From a virus: a stretch of 22,045 nucleotides of DNA. Positions 11,255-22,045 of this stretch are shown in pieces. Made by a program: the position numbers and the translations under genes. The notes beneath the pieces were generated by a model, which did not search any database, was not told the DNA's origin, and saw nothing but the letters and a program-made list of their open reading frames with translations. The DNA lies in the IMG/VR virus record IMGVR_UViG_3300035184_000955, positions 1-22,045 of that record; one strand, given 5' to 3'. Within the stretch, counting starts at the first letter, position 1. Each line of letters starts with the position of its first letter.

Positions 11255-11524
11255 TTATCTAATTTTTTTATCGTTCTTTTTCATGGTATATGATTTATAA
11301 ACTTTTAAATAGTTTACAGAATCAACCCAATCTGCTAATATCTCTTGAACAAAATTGACAAAGTCGTTCATTTGATTATTTCTCCATATATGATTAGATA
11401 TGGAATTCTTTAAGATATTATTTCTATAATCGTTTCCTAGATTCTTTCTATCATCAAATACATTTTCTCTAATAGAGTATATTCTTTTCCTTCTGCTTTT
11501 AAAGAGTTTACTAAAAATATTCAT
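11255..11524 (-). CDS. Small basic protein of unknown function between gp6- and gp7-like genes
   Basis: An 89-aa, strongly basic protein (Lys/Arg clusters at the N-terminus, KLFKSRRKRIYS, and at the C-terminus, MKKNDKKIR) with a central amphipathic, Trp-containing helix region (about 45-72). No family recognised. It is probably real: its ATG overlaps the gp6 stop codon by 1 nt (TAATG), its own stop is 2 nt from the next ATG, and it fills the whole gap between two wedge genes, so it looks translationally coupled. It could be a small wedge or assembly factor. The basic ends would also suit binding to an acidic protein or nucleic acid. Confidence 0.65.
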   Translation of the reverse strand: MNIFSKLFKSRRKRIYSIRENVFDDRKNLGNDYRNNILKNSISNHIWRNNQMNDFVNFVQEILADWVDSVNYLKVYKSYTMKKNDKKIR

Positions 11525-13344
11525 TATATTGCTTTTCTATTTTTAGCTTGAACTTTTGCAAATATCGAGTTTTTTACTGCCGGCTCATCAAAGTATATTG
11601 AAAGAGCAGCCTTTTCACCCGTCTTAACTGAATCATCAACCATTATATTCTTTCTATCTAGCCATCCACCTCTGAATAGTGCTACTTCTTCAGGTTCTAA
11701 AATAATATCTCCAAATGAATCTAGATTAATTACATTTTCAGGAAGAGCAGCATCGGGTTCAAAGTTGACCTGTGATGTGGTTACTGTTCTTTTAAAGAAA
11801 ACCATCTTTTGTTTACCATTACCAACGTCCTTTAATACTGGAGTAGACGGTGTTACGGTTACTGTCTCAGATACATAGTAGCCTAGTCTTCTTGCTGTTT
11901 CTTCTTTTTCAGAAGTAAATTTAACATTAACTGAATCAATACCGTCAATTGCCTCAACAATTGCAACGATATCAGATTTAGGTAATCTGTCTCTTCGCGT
12001 TATATTAATTAAGTATTCTGCAATCTTAGATCTAATCTCTGTTGCAACGTTAGCTTTACTATATCCTTCAAAGTATCTTACCTTAACATCCATTCTAAAA
12101 AATTGTGGTTCTGGATCAACGACCTTTACTTCAGTAGTGACCATTTGTCTTCCTGACTTTTCTAATAAACCTAAGATACCTTCTTTTTCTATTTCAGTAA
12201 AAAAGAATTCAGATGTATCTAAATTAAAATAATCTTTATTATTTTGTAGTTTTTTGAGAGTATCAGGCAGCATAAACAGATAGATAACATTATCATCATC
12301 TAAATATCCATCATCTGTTGTATTATATGCATCTAAATAAGAGAACATACCATACCTTGATAAGAAATGCTCATAATTTTCAGGTGTTGCTAACACAAAC
12401 GAGTGTGATTGTAACGGAGCGATTAATTTCGTTAATTGAATATCTTCAGGATTTGCTCCCATTTTTGGGGCAACTGTAAATTCCGACTCTAGCATTTCGT
12501 TTAAGTCATGTGTATTTCCTAAAGAATCCATGCCTTCTGTTTTAAATGAAAAGGATAAATCAGCTCTACCATTTAAATTACCCATGGATCCCGCTATTTT
12601 TAAATATTCCACTTCTATCGTAGAACCTGAAGGTGGTATTTCACCAAAAGATCCATTTCCAAAATAAATATCTAAACCTCCTGTGATACCTGTCTTAACA
12701 AGATATCCTTGAGTTCCCTTTTTCATATCATACAAAGAATCGTATTTAGACCAAAGATTAGAATTAACCTTTATTCTAACTTGGGAATGATCTACCATAC
12801 TTTTTGTTATAACATTAAAGGATTGGAAGGATTCTCCAGTTGAGGTTAAATTCTGTGATTCATATTCACCTTGTATAACAGGAACATATATGTAGTTTGA
12901 GTTTGATTTTTCTAACCTGAATTGATCGTTGCTAGTTCTTAGGGTGTATTTAAGACCGTTATCCTTACATTCTATAATAGAATTTGCTGGAATGTTTAAT
13001 GCATCACCTGCAATGTCGTCTAAATTAGAAACTCCTAGTCTTAATTTTACTTCACCAGAAGCGGCAGCTCCTCTAAATGAATCATGCCCGGCTAATCTAG
13101 ATAAACCATATATTGATTCAGGATTCTGTGCTGTTAGTATGTTTTGTTCAACAGTAGCATCTTCTATATAAAAGAATATTAATCTACCTATTTGCGAAAT
13201 AACATCAAGTAATTGTGAAAAGGGTGAAGCTGTTGTGAATGCTCCTTCTACCTCGCCGTATACCCTAGTAACATAGGATCTTACGTCATCGATCATTTCT
13301 CCAACTTTAATTCTAGATGTTGATAAAAAGTTATTATCTGCCAT
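11524..13344 (-). CDS. gp6: Baseplate wedge protein gp6 (Baseplate_J / P2 gpJ-like)
   Basis: Structural protein forming the ring of wedges around the hub of a contractile tail. The 606-aa length is close to T4 gp6 (660 aa) and longer than P2 gpJ (about 300). Hallmarks: the N-terminal helical region (about 30-90) with SPFSQLLDVISQIGRLIFFYIED; the Baseplate_J core motif at about residues 222-252, where a DIYFGNGSFGEIPPSG strand-loop is followed by a strand ending in AGSMGNLNG; and a C-terminal DRLPKSDIVAIVEAIDGIDSV segment (about 449-470), the usual gpJ family pattern ahead of the final beta region. It lies directly after the gp25-like gene (19-nt gap), the standard W-J order. The leader is AT-rich (AATAAAATAAAA) with no Shine-Dalgarno. 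Family assignment is secure. Confidence 0.9.
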   Translation of the reverse strand: MADNNFLSTSRIKVGEMIDDVRSYVTRVYGEVEGAFTTASPFSQLLDVISQIGRLIFFYIEDATVEQNILTAQNPESIYGLSRLAGHDSFRGAAASGEVKLRLGVSNLDDIAGDALNIPANSIIECKDNGLKYTLRTSNDQFRLEKSNSNYIYVPVIQGEYESQNLTSTGESFQSFNVITKSMVDHSQVRIKVNSNLWSKYDSLYDMKKGTQGYLVKTGITGGLDIYFGNGSFGEIPPSGSTIEVEYLKIAGSMGNLNGRADLSFSFKTEGMDSLGNTHDLNEMLESEFTVAPKMGANPEDIQLTKLIAPLQSHSFVLATPENYEHFLSRYGMFSYLDAYNTTDDGYLDDDNVIYLFMLPDTLKKLQNNKDYFNLDTSEFFFTEIEKEGILGLLEKSGRQMVTTEVKVVDPEPQFFRMDVKVRYFEGYSKANVATEIRSKIAEYLINITRRDRLPKSDIVAIVEAIDGIDSVNVKFTSEKEETARRLGYYVSETVTVTPSTPVLKDVGNGKQKMVFFKRTVTTSQVNFEPDAALPENVINLDSFGDIILEPEEVALFRGGWLDRKNIMVDDSVKTGEKAALSIYFDEPAVKNSIFAKVQAKNRKAI

Positions 13345-13363: not shown

Positions 13364-13717
13364 TTATACGTAAACTCCTAGTTGATACCTATTATCAATT
13401 CGTATGTCTACAAACACGGCATGCCTGTCAACTTCTTTTGTGAAGTCAACATCTACCGTGACGTTAAATTTTCTAGCCAAGGGTGCATATCTATAAATTT
13501 GCTCAGCAACTACTTTTTTTAATAAATAGTCATTATAGCTTAAAGCATAGACATAATCTTCTAAATTTGCTCCAAATTCAGGATCACCTAATACATCACC
13601 TCTTCTTGTAAAAAGAATGGTTTCTATCTGTGTCATTAGCCTAGCCAGTTCAGAATTAACTTCTAACTTTGCTGGATCAAATCCAGGATCTCCTTTTGCT
13701 TTTATATAAAACTCCAT
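13364..13717 (-). CDS. gp25: Baseplate wedge protein gp25 (GPW/gp25 family)
   Basis: A 117-aa protein, against 132 aa in T4, with the family signature: a helix QIETILFTRRGDVLGDPEFG (about residues 31-50) carrying the conserved T-x-x-G-[DE]-x-x-x-x-P-x-F-G pattern, then LEDYVYAL, and a final beta pair (HAVFVDIRIDNR). gp25 sits at the tail-sheath/baseplate junction, nucleates sheath assembly and forms part of the wedge core with gp6 and gp7. It lies directly before the gp6-like gene and 16 nt after the gp13-like gene. The leader GAATATATAGTTAA-ATG has no Shine-Dalgarno. Family assignment is secure. Confidence 0.92.
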   Translation of the reverse strand: MEFYIKAKGDPGFDPAKLEVNSELARLMTQIETILFTRRGDVLGDPEFGANLEDYVYALSYNDYLLKKVVAEQIYRYAPLARKFNVTVDVDFTKEVDRHAVFVDIRIDNRYQLGVYV

Positions 13718-13733
13718 TTAACTATATATTCTA

Positions 13734-14567
13734 TTAAGAATGCATCATCCAATCGGTGCCTTCATCTGATTTTATTTCTTCTATTACTGCTTCTAATTCT
13801 CCTTCACCTAAACCTTGAATTGCATCGGCGTTTACTTCTATATTACCAGGTAAAGCAAATCCAAATATACTTAACTTTTGGCCAAGTGATATTTTAATTT
13901 TTGCAGCACAGTATCTAAAGAATGCTTCATCTTCGAAAAGAGCACATTCAGGAATGGTTTCATATACCTCTAATATAATATTTCTATTAGGTGTTTCACC
14001 TGTAAATTTAATCTCGTGTGTTAATTGATTATAGTGGAATCCTATAGGATTCTCTAAAATTTGTCTAGCCATATCAAAGAAACTTTCATTGACTACATAA
14101 TATTGTAAGTTTTCTGCAGCATCAACTACACCATCTCCACTAAACATACCTTGATACATCATTCTCTCAATAGCAAAATCTCCTTCTTGAAATCTAATAT
14201 CTGAACCACCTGCATACTTAGATCCGGTTTCAAAACATCCATACACTGAATAAACTTCTCCACCTCCAGTCACTGGATCCATTGTAGGTAGTGTGAACGA
14301 TCTTTTATCCTTAAAATATTGTGTTGTAAATAGTTCTTTTGGTAAAACCATGAAGTTTTCTTTCATGGAATATTCGTAATTCTTATAAAACCATTTCTTT
14401 GCTCTTTTGACAAGTCTTTCAACTTCTGCCCTTGGAAGATTCATAGGAATCATACATGACCCTGTCACTTCCGATGCCAGCTCATTTACAAAATTATTAA
14501 AGCATGTAGGATTATCCCAGCTTGGAGCCTGTTGGTTGCTATCATTACCTATTATATTATCACTCAT
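13734..14567 (-). CDS. gp13: Neck protein, T4 gp13-like (head completion)
   Basis: A 277-aa soluble protein (T4 gp13 is 309 aa) expected at the head-tail junction, completing the portal side of the head before tail joining. The C-terminal 62 residues are the best evidence: an aromatic/Ala helix (FFRYCAAKIKISLGQKL), then a Gly-rich turn with LPG at about 239-241, a short strand (IEVNADAI) and an acidic helix (ELEAVIEEIK). This matches the layout I know from cyanophage gp13 proteins (helix with ATALIKRQWG, then LPGG, then an acidic helix). The N-terminal half has a basic helix (ERLVKRAKKWFYKNY, about 50-64) that fits the early gp13 region. It starts 17 nt after the amidoligase stop. Finding a neck gene beside the wedge genes is less usual than in T4. 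Another adaptor or neck protein is possible. Confidence 0.55.
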   Translation of the reverse strand: MSDNIIGNDSNQQAPSWDNPTCFNNFVNELASEVTGSCMIPMNLPRAEVERLVKRAKKWFYKNYEYSMKENFMVLPKELFTTQYFKDKRSFTLPTMDPVTGGGEVYSVYGCFETGSKYAGGSDIRFQEGDFAIERMMYQGMFSGDGVVDAAENLQYYVVNESFFDMARQILENPIGFHYNQLTHEIKFTGETPNRNIILEVYETIPECALFEDEAFFRYCAAKIKISLGQKLSIFGFALPGNIEVNADAIQGLGEGELEAVIEEIKSDEGTDWMMHS

Positions 14568-14584
14568 TTTATCTTACTTATTTT

Positions 14585-15880
14585 TTAAACTTCAGTATAA
14601 AGTATTTTTTCTGTTTTGTCAAACTTAGCAGTTCTTTTATCATATCTACCCATTCTAAAGATACCACCTTGCATCGATCCTTTCATCATTCCATTTCCAT
14701 AGATATAACAGTCCTTTAAAACACAAGATTGGTGAACGTATGAACTCTCTAGCTTAGAAGAATTAAGCTGAGTAGATTGATAGAAATTACAAGAATGAAT
14801 ATCAGATCCGTTTATATCACATCCGAAAAAATCACAATTTGTAAATTCTCCTCTCAGAGAACATCTTATAAATTCATATCCTTCTAGTTCTACACAGTAT
14901 GATAAGTTACCACCTTCTACTTGAATAGTCCCGTTATCTGCATCATAATTAATATGCCCTTTAGTTAATTCACCATGCGTAAATAATCTAAGAACTCTTT
15001 CTCTAATATTAGACCAGTGTAAATCTATTATCTTTTCATTGTCATTTAAGTCAACTGTTAATTTAACATCTTGATTCCAACCTGCATTAATACTTTTCCA
15101 ATCTTTTCTAGCCTTTATAATTCTTTCATTCTTTGCAAGAATTTTTCTAAGCTCTATTGAATTAAGATTATCAAATTGAACACTAGACGTGCTATTCCAT
15201 AATTGTGTTATGAAAAGATCTAGCATTTGTAGAATTTTAGAAGTTTTCTTTTCCCAATCTTCTCCACCTAGATATCTAAATTCTAAATAATTCTTATGTC
15301 TTTTTTCAAAGTTAATTCCGTAATATTTAGAATCAGGATATATGAAATTACTTGGCGTAATATTTGCTCCATCATAGAAATAAGTGTCTGACTTTGGTAA
15401 AACAAATTTAATAGATTTTGCGTATGCAGAATCTTTTCTTTCAGGGAAAAACTTAAAGACTTGACCCTCTTTAAAATCTAAAATAAATTTAAGAACATTC
15501 ATCTTAGATATTCTATGTTTATTTTCTATTTTATCGGTGTCGAAGGATATGTTTAAGTGAATAGAACTTCTATCATTAGTATATCCATTTTCTTCTATCC
15601 ATTTACATACCTTGATAATCATCATTCTTGCAGAATAGTAAGGCTGAGGTCCCGTTACAAGTTCCATTAATTTTTCGCCACCTGACATGTCAGGTTCTAT
15701 TTTGAACTCGTCTCTTGTAACTTCAAAATCACTATGTGCCTTTGCTTCTACTCTAATCTTTTTACCTAAAATCCCTGCTAATTCCTTAGCAGTCGTATCG
15801 ATATCCTTATTAGAATAGAATTCAAATTCAACGCCTAGTAGCGCATTCTTCAATATGTCTGAATTATTAATATTATTCAT
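14585..15880 (-). CDS. Predicted amidoligase (COOH-NH2 ligase, glutamine synthetase-like fold) fused to pentapeptide-like repeats
   Basis: A 431-aa two-part protein. The N-terminal part (about 1-230) has the ordered motifs of the Amidoligase_2 family: a first strand with Gly-x-Glu-x-Glu (GVEFEF, 16-21), D-x-S at 64-66 followed by E-L-V-T-G-P at 73-78, S-I-H-L-N-I-S at 106-112, and E-F-R at 200-202. These acidic, His and Arg positions are where glutamine synthetase-fold ligases bind metal, ATP and the acid substrate, so an active enzyme forming an amide bond is plausible. A linker (about 231-329) follows. Residues about 335-395 hold five-residue repeats such as EFTNC, DFFGC, DINGS, DIHSC and NFYQS, with Cys or Ser at every fifth position, as in a right-handed pentapeptide helix. 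There is no signal peptide, so it acts in the host cytoplasm. The substrate is unknown. It is the first gene after the terminator and precedes the gp13-like gene by 17 nt. Confidence 0.75.
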   Translation of the reverse strand: MNNINNSDILKNALLGVEFEFYSNKDIDTTAKELAGILGKKIRVEAKAHSDFEVTRDEFKIEPDMSGGEKLMELVTGPQPYYSARMMIIKVCKWIEENGYTNDRSSIHLNISFDTDKIENKHRISKMNVLKFILDFKEGQVFKFFPERKDSAYAKSIKFVLPKSDTYFYDGANITPSNFIYPDSKYYGINFEKRHKNYLEFRYLGGEDWEKKTSKILQMLDLFITQLWNSTSSVQFDNLNSIELRKILAKNERIIKARKDWKSINAGWNQDVKLTVDLNDNEKIIDLHWSNIRERVLRLFTHGELTKGHINYDADNGTIQVEGGNLSYCVELEGYEFIRCSLRGEFTNCDFFGCDINGSDIHSCNFYQSTQLNSSKLESSYVHQSCVLKDCYIYGNGMMKGSMQGGIFRMGRYDKRTAKFDKTEKILYTEV

Positions 15881-15938
15881 TTACGTAATTGTATAACTTA
15901 AGTTGGTTTATATATCTCTGTTAGATACACTATAACGT
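15881..15938 (-). promoter_or_regulatory. Leader of the amidoligase gene with two palindromes; candidate promoter
   Basis: These bases separate the terminator from the amidoligase ATG and must hold any promoter for the downstream unit. They contain two perfect palindromes: AACTTAAGTT (15895-15904), and TTACGTAA (15881-15888) directly before the ATG. Reading the minus strand, an A/T box GATATATAAAC lies about 30 nt before the start and could act as a -10-type or phage late element. I see no clear -35 or -33 partner. The palindromes could bind a dimeric regulator, or be chance. Promoter activity is inferred from position only. Confidence 0.3.
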
Positions 15939-15966
15939 GAAAAAGCCCGAGTGATCGGGCTCTTTC
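15936..15966 (-). terminator. Intrinsic (rho-independent) terminator after the S1-domain gene
   Basis: On the minus strand the sequence reads AGCCCGA, loop TCAC, TCGGGCT, followed at once by a T-run (GGGCTTTTTC). The stem is a perfect 7 bp with five G/C pairs, extended by A-T pairs, in otherwise AT-rich DNA, and lies 25 nt beyond the stop of the S1-domain gene. It is the only strong G/C hairpin with a U-run found in a gap of the window. It should end, or partly end, transcripts coming from the hub genes. Confidence 0.85.
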
Positions 15967-15985
15967 AATTAAATTATAGATTTGA

Positions 15986-17314
15986 TTATAGTTTCAGGAA
16001 TACTTTTCTAGTATCTTCTTCAACTCTGATCACCTGGACAGTAATATCTGCACCTTTAGATATGTCTTTAATATCTATGTTATCAGGGAATTCTGATATA
16101 TGTAAGAGTCCTACAACACCTTCTTCTATTTCTACAAATAAACCATAATCTTTAGTAGATTTTACAACACCAACTACTTCGGTTTTCTTAGTATATCTTA
16201 ATGAAATACCTTCCCATGGGTCGACCTTCTTTTCAGCTGGAGAACCTTGCACTAGTGTGATTTTTCTTTCATTAATAACTTCTTTAACATAGAATTTAAT
16301 CTCTGTTCCTGGTTCTAGAGTTCTATCTCTATGTGCCTTTGAAGTTTCAGTATCTAGATCATTAACATGTATCATACCTGTTAAACATCCTTTGAATTCG
16401 ACAAATACACCATATTTCGCAGAGCCTGTAACATGGCCTGTTCTTTCTGTTGTGATGTCATCTTGTATTTCTTTAAGTGTATTAGGAATAAGAGCTCTTA
16501 AATATGCTCTGTGAGAAACTACAACAGTTCCTTTTTCTTCTGAATAACTTACAGGTACTACATACATTTCAGTGTCAATAATTGATTCGAAGTCGTGTAA
16601 TTTATTTACACCGGCTAATGAGCCTGGCATAAAGCAATCAATACCCTGAACTTGTACAATATATCCTCCACCTGGAATCATCTTAGTAACAACGCCACTA
16701 TATGCTGTATTTCCGTCATCAATAGATGCTACTATTTCTTTAATAACCTTAGTCTTAAGACCTTCAGTTACAGAACCTATCATATATTTTTTGACATTCA
16801 TCGAAGTGTCAGCAATTAACTGAACGTCGACTTCTGCACCCTGTTTTAAAAGTTCTCTTACATCTGTTGCTTCTCTTGATAAATCTACATAGACTAATTC
16901 TCTATATCCTACATCAATTGATGCCCATTCAGTATCAACTGCATACACTTTTCCGGTATAACTAGCTCCTAATTGTAAAGAATATATCGTATTAGAAGTC
17001 AATGAATGACCTTCCATTATGTCAAATAATTCCTGAGCATAGGATTCTCTGCTATATACCTTTACACCTTTAGGTGTTTTAATATGTGGATTGGGTTTTC
17101 TAAGCTTGGTAATACAAGTTGCCTCATATTGGTCCCACATGAATTCTCCGTTTTCATCTATGTAATCGGTGTCTGGGCCTGGTGTTGCTTTTTCTGGGGC
17201 TGGTGAGTTTAATGAAGTTTCTACTTTAACTTCTGTTTCTTGATTTGCTTCAACTAGTTGAGTTGTTGCTGAGAGTCTGGCTCTCTTTTGTTTTTGAGTT
17301 GTCTTTGTTGACAT
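15986..17314 (-). CDS. Ribosomal protein S1-like protein with four S1 (OB-fold) RNA-binding domains
   Basis: A 442-aa protein. After a low-complexity Lys/Gln/Thr/Glu/Pro-rich N-terminus (about 1-50) and a helical segment, four S1 domains follow at about residues 114-185, 203-270, 289-357 and 377-442. The last two are clearest: RTGHVTGSAKYGVFVEFKG...GMIHVNDL and VVGVVKSTKDYGLFVEIEEG...GLLHISEF, each with the G-x-V, Y-G-x-F-V-[DE] and G-[LM]-[IL]-H landmarks. Domains 1 and 2 are more divergent. Bacterial S1 (often six domains) unwinds and holds mRNA on the 30S subunit and matters most where Shine-Dalgarno pairing is weak. The N-terminus does not resemble the S2-binding helix of E. coli S1. The gene is followed by a terminator and preceded by a 45-nt leader (TTAACCCTTTTAAAAAC). 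It could be a phage translation factor, an RNA chaperone or a nuclease partner; there is no catalytic domain. Confidence 0.85.
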   Translation of the reverse strand: MSTKTTQKQKRARLSATTQLVEANQETEVKVETSLNSPAPEKATPGPDTDYIDENGEFMWDQYEATCITKLRKPNPHIKTPKGVKVYSRESYAQELFDIMEGHSLTSNTIYSLQLGASYTGKVYAVDTEWASIDVGYRELVYVDLSREATDVRELLKQGAEVDVQLIADTSMNVKKYMIGSVTEGLKTKVIKEIVASIDDGNTAYSGVVTKMIPGGGYIVQVQGIDCFMPGSLAGVNKLHDFESIIDTEMYVVPVSYSEEKGTVVVSHRAYLRALIPNTLKEIQDDITTERTGHVTGSAKYGVFVEFKGCLTGMIHVNDLDTETSKAHRDRTLEPGTEIKFYVKEVINERKITLVQGSPAEKKVDPWEGISLRYTKKTEVVGVVKSTKDYGLFVEIEEGVVGLLHISEFPDNIDIKDISKGADITVQVIRVEEDTRKVFLKL

Positions 17315-19041: not shown

Positions 19042-19743
19042 TTATTTATTTTCTTGTTGATATGACTTGTGATCTCCTTCGTCAAATGGAACTTGTAAAG
19101 TACTCGAAGGACCAACACCTGTCGGATGAATATGTGCTTTATAGTCTGCAATAAAATTAGCTAGAAATTCTTCTAAAGATAATCCTCTTACGGCTGGCTG
19201 TTCGGTGTCTTCACCTGGTTCTCCAGTATTACTTAAAAATATATTACCTGCATCTAAAAATATTCTAGCATCTGTAGAAATTTTAATATCACCGGCTTCG
19301 TCTATTTGTATTATAGGTCTTTCTTTCGCACCGAGACCTCTAGTAATTACAAGACCATCTTCTTCTGAATGATAAATTCTTACATTTCTTTCAGCATCAT
19401 ATACTAAACTGATTACGTTTTCAGCATTATCCGCTCCATCTAATATATCTTCTTTAAGATCAAGATTCTGCTCTATATGAAACCAATATTCAGGATGATA
19501 TAAATTTCCATTATCAAATCTAGCTGAAACTATATCTCCTATTCTAGGAACATGGTGAGAACCTACTGCGTTTCTATTCATGGGTGTTGCCCATGGAATA
19601 GCATCATCTGGTAAATTATCATATTTACCTAAAACTTTAACCTTACATCTACCCATTTTAAGAGGATCGACATTGTCGATAACTTCTCCTAACCAATGAG
19701 TGTCTCTAAGATTATCAGTATTTAATTCTTTTTCAGTTGACAT
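19042..19743 (-). CDS. gp5: Baseplate central spike protein, gp5-like (OB fold, no lysozyme domain)
   Basis: The N-terminal OB fold (about residues 17-92) has the gp5/gpV pattern: WLGEVIDNVDPLKMGRCKVKV, a loop, IPWATPM, then a run with VPRIGDIVSARF and a strand ending at WFHI. It is followed by short strands (about 110-172: VRIYHSEEDG, IIQIDEAGDIKIST, IFLDAGNIFLS) that look like a short beta-helix or prism. The C-terminus carries HIHPTGVGPS with H-x-H at 204-206, the kind of His pair that binds iron at the tip of phage spikes. At 233 aa it is much shorter than T4 gp5 (575 aa) and lacks the lysozyme domain. It sits between a probable tube/baseplate gene (3-nt gap) and the 559-aa gene, with the gp27-like hub gene two genes upstream. 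It would trimerise under the hub and pierce the outer membrane. Confidence 0.85.
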   Translation of the reverse strand: MSTEKELNTDNLRDTHWLGEVIDNVDPLKMGRCKVKVLGKYDNLPDDAIPWATPMNRNAVGSHHVPRIGDIVSARFDNGNLYHPEYWFHIEQNLDLKEDILDGADNAENVISLVYDAERNVRIYHSEEDGLVITRGLGAKERPIIQIDEAGDIKISTDARIFLDAGNIFLSNTGEPGEDTEQPAVRGLSLEEFLANFIADYKAHIHPTGVGPSSTLQVPFDEGDHKSYQQENK

Positions 19744-21036: not shown

Positions 21037-22045
21037 CTAGCCTTCCAAATTATTAATTCTACTAGGCCACTCTCTTCTTAGCATTGTAAGTTTTTGTGTA
21101 AGACCAGTGCTTTGACTATAGACATATTTAATTCCTCCTATTATATAGTAGCCCGTTAAAAACTCATCTTTAACTTGATCTGCATTTAAATCATTTACAT
21201 TTTCAGCTTCAACTTCTTGATCTGTTTCAAATCCCTTTTCATCCTTTGCCTCATTAATACCCTGTTGTGAACTAATTTGTGTAAATCCAGATTTCATAAT
21301 CTGCACCGGTATTTTTTGCCAAAGATGTATTCCTGGATTAAATGTTTTTAAAGTTAATTCTAATTTCATTTTATTCATTTCATCTAAGTTCTGCTTATTA
21401 CTAATTGCAGAATATGAATAATTTAAATGTACGTTTGGCGTATCGTCAGATTGAATAGGGAGCCTTCCAACGTATTTTGATTTTACTTCTTTGGTATATC
21501 TGTCTTCATCTCTTCTGCCCTTCAGAGGCTCATCTATGTCCTTCATGTTATCACTCGCAAGTGGTTCTAGTTCATGAGCAACTACACCCACTGAATCATT
21601 TTCCCAATATATCATTTTTCTTTTATATCCGTTTTTCTTAGCTAATGCTCCGGAATTATTTACAAGATTATAACTTGATATAAAGGTGTTAGTGGAATTC
21701 ATGCTAGCCGCATTGGTCAGTATGTTTGGGGATTCTATTTTATTTGAAGTTTGATCTTCTCCATCTTCGTCAAAGTCTACAGACATATTAATAAAAGTTT
21801 CATCTAATCCTTCTTCTGAATTTAATAGGGCATTAACATCAACAAAACATAGATTATAATAAGGATCTATGCAATATGTTTGAAAACTATCTTCTCCTAT
21901 GTACGAGTGTTCTACTAAATTATTTAAAAATTCTAAGTTAGGCTGACATGCATTAAGAGCTTTCATAGCATCGTCGGCTGAATCTATATTTGTTGCTAAC
22001 CCTAATTTTAAGTTCGTAGCAAACTCTTCAATCTGTTCTCTAGAA
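21037..22045 (-). CDS. gp27: Baseplate hub protein, gp27-like (5' end beyond right edge, partial)
   Basis: The frame stays open to the right edge. An internal ATG lies at 21964-21966, but 26 further in-frame, coding-like codons lie upstream of it (SREQIEEFATNLKLGLATNIDSADDA), so I treat the gene as truncated by the window; 335 residues are visible. The gp27/gpD-type hub signature is at the C-terminus: FNPGIHLWQKIPVQIMKS, then an acidic loop (Asn/Glu/Asp, about 60 residues), then LTGYYIIGGIKYVYSQSTG and LTQKLTMLRREWPSR. The pattern of a loading strand, a G-x-Y-x-I-x-G-I strand and a final RREWP is characteristic of this hub family. The hub forms a trimeric ring that holds the gp5 spike and connects to the tube, in keeping with the gp5-like gene two genes downstream. 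Confidence 0.75.
   Translation of the reverse strand, partial: SREQIEEFATNLKLGLATNIDSADDAMKALNACQPNLEFLNNLVEHSYIGEDSFQTYCIDPYYNLCFVDVNALLNSEEGLDETFINMSVDFDEDGEDQTSNKIESPNILTNAASMNSTNTFISSYNLVNNSGALAKKNGYKRKMIYWENDSVGVVAHELEPLASDNMKDIDEPLKGRRDEDRYTKEVKSKYVGRLPIQSDDTPNVHLNYSYSAISNKQNLDEMNKMKLELTLKTFNPGIHLWQKIPVQIMKSGFTQISSQQGINEAKDEKGFETDQEVEAENVNDLNADQVKDEFLTGYYIIGGIKYVYSQSTGLTQKLTMLRREWPSRINNLEG

Follow-up and report, generated by a model that had tools for sequence, protein, structure and literature searches.

The window, by which we mean the whole stretch of DNA analysed here (22,045 nt), is a marine phage fragment from IMG/VR record IMGVR_UViG_3300035184_000955, and its main genes lie on the minus strand. 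One of these genes encodes a fusion of an amidoligase domain and a pentapeptide-like β-helix (Table 1). An earlier reading made from the DNA letters only (the sequence-only reading) had given its coordinates, strand and frame, and we obtained the same values. The fusion gene heads a run of neck, gp25-like and gp6-like genes, the neck gene following after 17 nt. Pfam and PHROGs searches confirmed that the gene sits in a phage morphogenesis run, with gp25-, gp6- and gp5-OB-like genes in addition to the neck gene.

Table 1. Features of the fusion locus (positions in the window)
Feature	Coordinates	Strand	Remarks
Baseplate wedge gp6-like	11524..13344	−	phrog_219 4.1e-35
Baseplate wedge gp25-like	13364..13717	−	PF04965 22.5 bits (below cut-off 27.2); phrog_43 5.5e-6
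gp13/Ad2-like neck (head-tail adaptor) gene	13734..14567	−	phrog_211 'head-tail adaptor Ad2', 3.6e-10; next downstream
Amidoligase/β-helix fusion protein	14585..15880	−	431 aa; ATG at 15880, stop at 14585
Pentapeptide-like right-handed β-helix (predicted)	14585..14983	−	residues 300-431; end motif G-x-M-x-G-G-[IV]-F-R-x-G
Amidoligase domain, predicted GS fold plus helical extension	14984..15880	−	residues 1-299; Pfam match 14-210
105-nt gap 5' of the fusion gene	15881..15985	−	hairpin 15944-15961 past the S1-domain gene, then GATATATAAACCAACTTAAGTT upstream of the ATG
S1 RNA-binding-domain protein, upstream neighbour	15986..17314	−	PF00575 6.5e-23; 442 aa
gp5-like baseplate hub OB protein	19042..19743	−	PF04717 4.4e-6; phrog_37871 1.6e-12

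The window protein passed the Pfam cut-off for Amidoligase_2 (PF12224; 26.2 bits, cut-off 22), and the same model matched 22 of 57 family members at E ≤ 0.01. The Pentapeptide model (PF00805) remained under its cut-off in the whole protein (12.9 bits vs 20.2) and reached 16 bits with the tail alone. Searching PHROGs gave no match for the window protein; some distant family members had weak matches, to amidoligase or unknown families. The amidoligase motifs G16-V-E18-F-E20-F, D64-M-S66, E73-L-V-T-G-P, H108-L-N110 and E200-F-R202 were all in the places given by the sequence-only reading. Following that reading, we take these ordered acidic, His and Arg residues to be the motif set of Amidoligase_2.

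To model the protein, we used AlphaFold2 with a 57-row alignment. The model of the whole protein had a pLDDT of 90.8 and a pTM of 0.82, and both proposed folds, GS-like for the N-terminal part and β-helical for the tail, were indeed predicted. A Foldseek search of the PDB with the whole model matched its N-terminal part to glutamine synthetases (GS; E 1.4e-5), with a TM of ∼0.27 and an rmsd of 15 for the whole alignment. In VIA-align, residues 1-235 gave Z scores of up to 12.1 against GS chains (rmsd 3.4, 183 residues aligned). Profile comparison by hhalign did not relate the sequence to that of E. coli GlnA (probability 0.7%), so the relation to GS rests on the predicted structure; the C-terminus of GS is also different. 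Among predicted viral proteins, A0A6J5PQ40 from an uncultured phage aligned over the full length (TM 0.85, 25% identity). The next viral models had TM ≤ 0.44 by query length, and many of them are named amidoligase.

In the full model, the tail has short strands at five-residue spacing around residues 350-378 and more strands up to ∼404. The tail modelled alone (pLDDT 93.2) is a right-handed β-helix, again with strands at five-residue spacing. A 36-row profile of the tail matched pentapeptide-repeat proteins in the PDB from E 1.4e-7. In VIA-align, AlbG, EfsQnr and MfpA scored Z 9.0-9.2, and the helices of pectate lyase and antigen 43 scored equally. Foldseek of the tail alone yielded nothing at E ≤ 0.001. 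Because of this null result, and because VIA-align does not separate pentapeptide from other β-helices, it is mainly the sequence profile that supports the pentapeptide label. The tail thus resembles the three pentapeptide-repeat proteins in its five-residue period and right-handed β-helix, but it is irregular, fused to an enzyme and below the Pfam cut-off.

Six records among 50,697 annotated phage records matched the fusion protein over 90-95% of its length and at 31-40% identity. All six are from uncultured phages of 462-735 kb. Two of them have an identical length (735,411) and an identical match and are therefore probably one genome. In the part of PMC7162821 that we draw on, the four largest genomes of that study are put in the Mahaphage clade; we infer the Mahaphage label for the 634-, 636-, 642- and 735-kb records and likewise for the 462-kb one. 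In IMG/VR, 195 stretches encoded relatives with the window protein as query (the best 80 of 195 were kept), and 493 with an alignment led by distant copies (the best 80 of 493 were kept); the two counts may overlap, and one phage may recur across contigs. In bacterial and archaeal genomes, a single scan turned up two loci, both on short MAG contigs. A profile search of the ORFs in these various loci collected 169 members, the window's own included. They comprise 114 distinct complete sequences, which we thinned to 71. The length is 430-483 aa in 168 of the 169, which implies that the tail is present in them; the remaining ORF, of 140 aa, is truncated by a contig end.

Some observations on individual loci may be mentioned here. 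Two ligase-bearing contigs, L167 and L168, belong to bins labelled deltaproteobacterium and uncultured bacterium. The first of these also carries relatives of the neck, gp25, gp6 and S1 genes, which makes it a probable case of phage DNA placed in a MAG. A weak second match in LR756502.1 (208696-208956; L259) covers ligase-profile positions 187-275 and contains two in-frame TAA stops; it is perhaps a decayed or split copy of the ligase. In LR756501.1 (617800-618411; L260, L262) the β-helix part alone was matched, within an open frame of 692 aa.

The alignment of the 71 relatives revealed strong constraint on the enzyme part. Residues G16, E18, E20, D64, S66, G68, E73, T76, K131, E138, P146, R148, K185, Y186, G188, N190, E200, R202, Y203 and G205 are identical in all 71, as are N311 and R409 of the tail. 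H108 is kept in 69 (Gln in the other two, L123 and L167) and N110 in 70. The acidic, His and Arg residues of the motif set are thus conserved in order across the 71 relatives, H108 with the two exceptions given, at identities to the window protein as low as 29%. Together with the GS fold, this implies that the enzyme is under constraint. The sequence-only reading had named conservation of the motif residues among homologues beforehand as a test that could refute it, and the claim withstood this test, with E18, E20, D64, S66, E73, E200 and R202 unchanged throughout.

The tail is the less conserved part: mean conservation by block was 0.43-0.58 for residues 301-431, compared with 0.47-0.75 for residues 1-220. 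Within residues 300-431, N311 and R409 are the only residues identical in all 71; K376 (68), G344 (67), G411 (67) and G406 (66) come next. The five-residue Cys/Ser pattern proposed earlier holds family-wide, Cys being replaced mostly by Ser. Thus C340 is present in 64 relatives (Ser in 7), C349 in 59 (Ser in 11), C391 in 56 (Ser in 8) and C354 in 41 (Ser in 20). Cys is frequent at these four positions, yet invariant at none of them.

We then compared the surroundings of the gene in near, mid and Mahaphage-like loci, which were split by profile score and locus list. The neck gene lies downstream within 1 kb and on the same strand in 80/80 near loci, 32/32 mid loci and 2/55 Mahaphage-like loci. 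When loci were retrieved with the neck protein, the ligase was present in 80 of 80; these 80, the best of 278, come from near relatives, so that they largely reflect inherited order and are not independent. The 55 Mahaphage-like loci are rearranged. A relative of the neck, gp25, gp6 or gp5 gene lies within 10 kb of the ligase in 36 of them; with five further window genes that lack a structural name counted as well, nine in all, the number is 46. As the loci are interrelated and have flanks of ≤ 10-15 kb that are often ended by the contig, both are raw counts. By record coordinates, ligase and neck genes are close together in the 462- and 636-kb records and ∼213-387 kb apart in the 634-, 642- and 735-kb records.

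Three clusters of neighbours recur in the Mahaphage-like loci. One, present in 36/55, has a representative that is weakly tape-measure-like (4.4e-4). A second, in 31/55, has a representative that is endolysin-like (2.7e-17) or tail-lysozyme-like, with a tape-measure-like end (6.8e-13). The representative of the third, which is found in 34/55 and mostly directly downstream of the ligase, gave no PHROG match. In one locus (L159, 2728-6618), 3.4 kb from the ligase, a relative of the window gene at 21037-21966 is fused to an endolysin-like domain and a tape-measure-like end in a protein of 1296 aa. The S1-domain gene stays beside the ligase in the morphogenesis run, a relative being located within 2 kb in 108 of the 169 loci. 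No repeat proteins with G[GA]x[FWY] runs were found among the ORFs of the loci.

The gap in front of the fusion gene is probably the start of a new transcription unit. Its hairpin, which the scan listed only as a plus-strand terminator, would then serve as a minus-strand terminator behind the S1-domain gene and be followed by a promoter. A dyad lies upstream of the ligase start in the window (15890-15930, minus strand) and also in L085, L056, L050, L153 and L160. Its arms differ among relatives (GGATATAT..ATATATCC, AGATATAT..ATATATCT and CGAATATAT..ATATATTCG), and the outer arms seem, by eye, to co-vary. This suggests a leader hairpin or an operator, though one that is weak in the window's own subgroup. 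A leader hairpin as a general regulator was considered and rejected: it is strong in some subgroups and weak or absent in most Mahaphage-like loci. It is weak as well in L007, whose leader equals that of the window (dG −6.0, z −0.4), and for these reasons we left it out of the explanation.

In 15 loci (L002-L005, L087, L089, L090, L092, L097, L101, L108, L111, L113, L119 and L129), a separate element, TAATATATA, was counted 38 times with its start 13-17 nt ahead of an ATG. Of 245 ORFs with a length of at least about 150 aa, 61 have it ≤ 30 nt from an early ATG, and there are 132 copies in total, compared with 50-74 in block shuffles. Possibly, TAATATATA is a phage promoter that would yield nearly leaderless mRNAs.

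To estimate how fast the fusion gene changes, we compared the window genes with their relatives in loci of less than 90% identity. Median identities to the window, measured on the best local BLAST segments, were 70.0% for the ligase (54 loci), 71.1% for gp6 (47), 70.8% for the neck protein (51), 63.9% for gp5 (44), 53.9% for gp25 (50) and 54.0% for the S1-domain protein (45). The ligase is therefore as conserved as the neck protein and gp6.

Presence and absence of the gene were scored in 12 genome records. PF12224 proved too weak a probe for this purpose, as none of the 12 records rose over its cut-off and the known huge-phage copies were missed; the family profile A3 was used instead. It matched five of the 12, namely the five huge-phage records, each with one full-length copy (two of the five had weak partial matches besides). 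The profile did not find the ligase in two Lak phages, Tenacibaculum phage PTm1, Sphingomonas phage PAU and Chryseobacterium phage MA9V-2, which had been chosen by the same neck protein, nor in Tenacibaculum phage pT24 and Flavobacterium phage MaF61, chosen by a gp6-like match. Since these seven related phages gave no match, virions of this general kind can evidently be built without the gene. Ten other records (eight virus records and two MAGs) had one match each.

Phage proteins annotated as amidoligase enzyme (phrog_2443 and phrog_7469) share the GS fold and the ordered motifs of Amidoligase_2 with the window protein. They differ from it in that the window protein has a C-terminal β-helix, lies in a neck-baseplate setting and has no PHROG match. 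One cultured phage, Agrobacterium phage Atu_ph07, encodes a distant relative (AUZ94978, 500 aa; PF12224, 30.2 bits) that matches both of these PHROGs. It has most of the motif set (GFEFE, PDGS, ELVS, HIN and EFR-x-x-GG) but no Pentapeptide match, and a search of plasmids with this protein gave no match. Its gene lies 2.7 kb, with one gene in between, from the portal gene, which is on the opposite strand. The accessions run unbroken from the amidoligase (AUZ94978) through the portal (AUZ94980) and core (AUZ94986) proteins to the major capsid protein (AUZ94997). In the relevant passages of PMC6102473, gp198, gp204 and gp215 are head proteins, gp215 being the major capsid protein. By this numbering the amidoligase should be gp196. 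According to the same passages, most proteins that mass spectrometry detected in the particles are encoded in three clusters, of which CDS 170-215 is one, and by its number gp196 should fall inside it. In Salicola jumbo phage SCTP-2, the tandem paralogues gp125 and gp124 (L268, 11056-14816; phrog_33777, 'unknown function') also carry amidoligase motifs. They share with the window protein a jumbo-phage origin and part of the motif set, but are longer (gp124 and gp125, 647 and 606 aa) and have a long insertion after the first motif.

Taken together, the two-domain protein is real and widely conserved, and its motifs are intact; the kind of enzyme is known, and the architecture and the setting are new. 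What stands of the earlier interpretation is that an amidoligase of GS fold, to all appearance intact, is joined to a Cys/Ser pentapeptide-like β-helix and encoded among structural genes; nothing in the analysis points to DNA mimicry by the helix. That acidic and Arg residues are invariant within a fold of the GS type points to ATP-dependent acyl-phosphate chemistry, in which a carboxyl group is joined to an amine. Our preferred reading, tentative and a little short of an even chance, is that of a carboxylate-amine (peptide or isopeptide) ligase which would be expressed late, use ATP and modify a virion protein during assembly, docked by its β-helix. In this reading, catalysis, late expression and docking are what we infer; the fold prediction, the motifs, the fusion, its location and its rate of change were computed.

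With ATP, the GS-like domain would turn a carboxyl group into an acyl phosphate, and the group so activated would be joined to an amine, so that an amino acid is added or a crosslink is made. The target would be a structural component of the neck or tail, or a protein assembled together with these. The β-helix would most simply be a docking or oligomerising arm of the enzyme, either placing it on the assembling structure or making it oligomeric. The fusion is kept across highly diverged phages, and its position and rate of change are like those of core virion genes. The structural-gene relatives near the ligase in many rearranged loci and the place of the Atu_ph07 gene also speak for this reading. 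Several results argue against a virion ligase: the large distance between ligase and neck genes in the 634-, 642- and 735-kb records, the seven related phages without a match, the common neighbour cluster without a PHROG match and the two relatives without H108. The C-terminus of the neck protein was considered as a substrate and dropped, since a comparison by eye of phages with and without the ligase revealed nothing special to the carriers.

The main rival, which we regard as rather unlikely, is an enzyme that modifies the host envelope, changing peptide links of the peptidoglycan for superinfection exclusion or control of lysis, and that is merely carried in the late operon. In passages of PMC5498523, PMC10580990 and PMC11318856, such modification of the cell wall is proposed for phage amidoligases of the LUZ24/phiEco32 type. 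The neighbour cluster with an endolysin-family match (one representative scanned) in the Mahaphage-like loci would fit this proposal. The LUZ24/phiEco32 cassette, however, pairs the amidoligase with GATase_6, a class II glutamine amidotransferase, and a search of 10 large records, made up of five huge-phage records and five possibly fragmentary contigs of 179-508 kb, found this partner in none, whereas the control was positive in 14/14 genomes. The COOH-NH2 ligase PF14395 was also found in 0 of the 10, but its control was positive nowhere; its absence carries no weight, nor does that of a match to the phrog_33777 probe. Neither an ATP-grasp enzyme nor a gamma-glutamyl cyclotransferase was present among the window ORFs searched against Pfam and PHROGs. 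Furthermore, in LUZ24-like phage UFV-P2 the cassette sits among early genes, according to part of PMC3890496, whereas the gene described here lies among structural genes. A rate of change as slow as that of virion genes would also, we think, be unusual for an accessory gene. The missing GATase_6, the position of the gene and its rate of change moderately favour a substrate in the particle over one in the wall.

An enzyme that is packaged via its β-helix, delivered with the DNA and used on a host protein at the start of infection would likewise fit a gene within the structural run, as it would the position of the Atu_ph07 relative's gene in a virion-protein cluster (in the passages of PMC6102473). 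Our analysis singled out no host target for it, and we consider it improbable.

GS-fold ligases act mostly on small molecules. A ligase for nucleotides or small metabolites, for example one that amidates a modified base or an amino acid while the β-helix contacts nucleic acid, would agree with this. HalA, a pentapeptide protein solved with oligo-dA (9nyi), is among the weaker matches of the tail (E 0.15 and 0.0023). The gene, however, sits with neck and baseplate genes, and no base-modification family was found among the window ORFs searched against Pfam and PHROGs, which leaves such a ligase slightly more improbable still. That the protein is an enzymatically dead structural protein reusing the fold would account for the Gln at H108 in two of 71 relatives, but is very improbable given the identity of E18, E20, D64, S66, E73, E200 and R202 in all of them.

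Returning to a virion-modifying ligase, we consider it possible, though we lean against it in so specific a form, that huge phages of the Mahaphage lineage have a dedicated, ATP-driven GS-fold ligase for virion maturation that docks through its β-helix and forms a covalent amide on a protein of the neck or tail, so adding a residue or making an isopeptide crosslink. The sequence-only reading knew of no standard tail or neck function that uses an amidoligase, and this agrees with the full-text literature searched, which consisted mainly of open-access journal papers. The fusion is undescribed in that same literature, although an earlier mention is possible, and by word search the main text of PMC7162821, the source of the largest such genome, does not contain the word 'amidoligase'.

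A slowly changing fusion gene is thus common to marine phage contigs, to hundreds of related phage contigs and to phage genomes of 462-735 kb, yet the window protein is without a PHROG match. If the host wall is the target, its modification would be a widespread trait of these phages. If the particle is the target, the virion would be modified covalently by a dedicated ligase, of which there was no case in the titles, starts of abstracts and passages that made up the literature searched. The spread of the fusion suggests covalent modification of a protein during particle assembly in the phages that carry it. Should the ligase indeed serve virion maturation, it would match, by means of an enzyme, the autocatalytic crosslinking of capsids, and would do so in the largest of phage particles.
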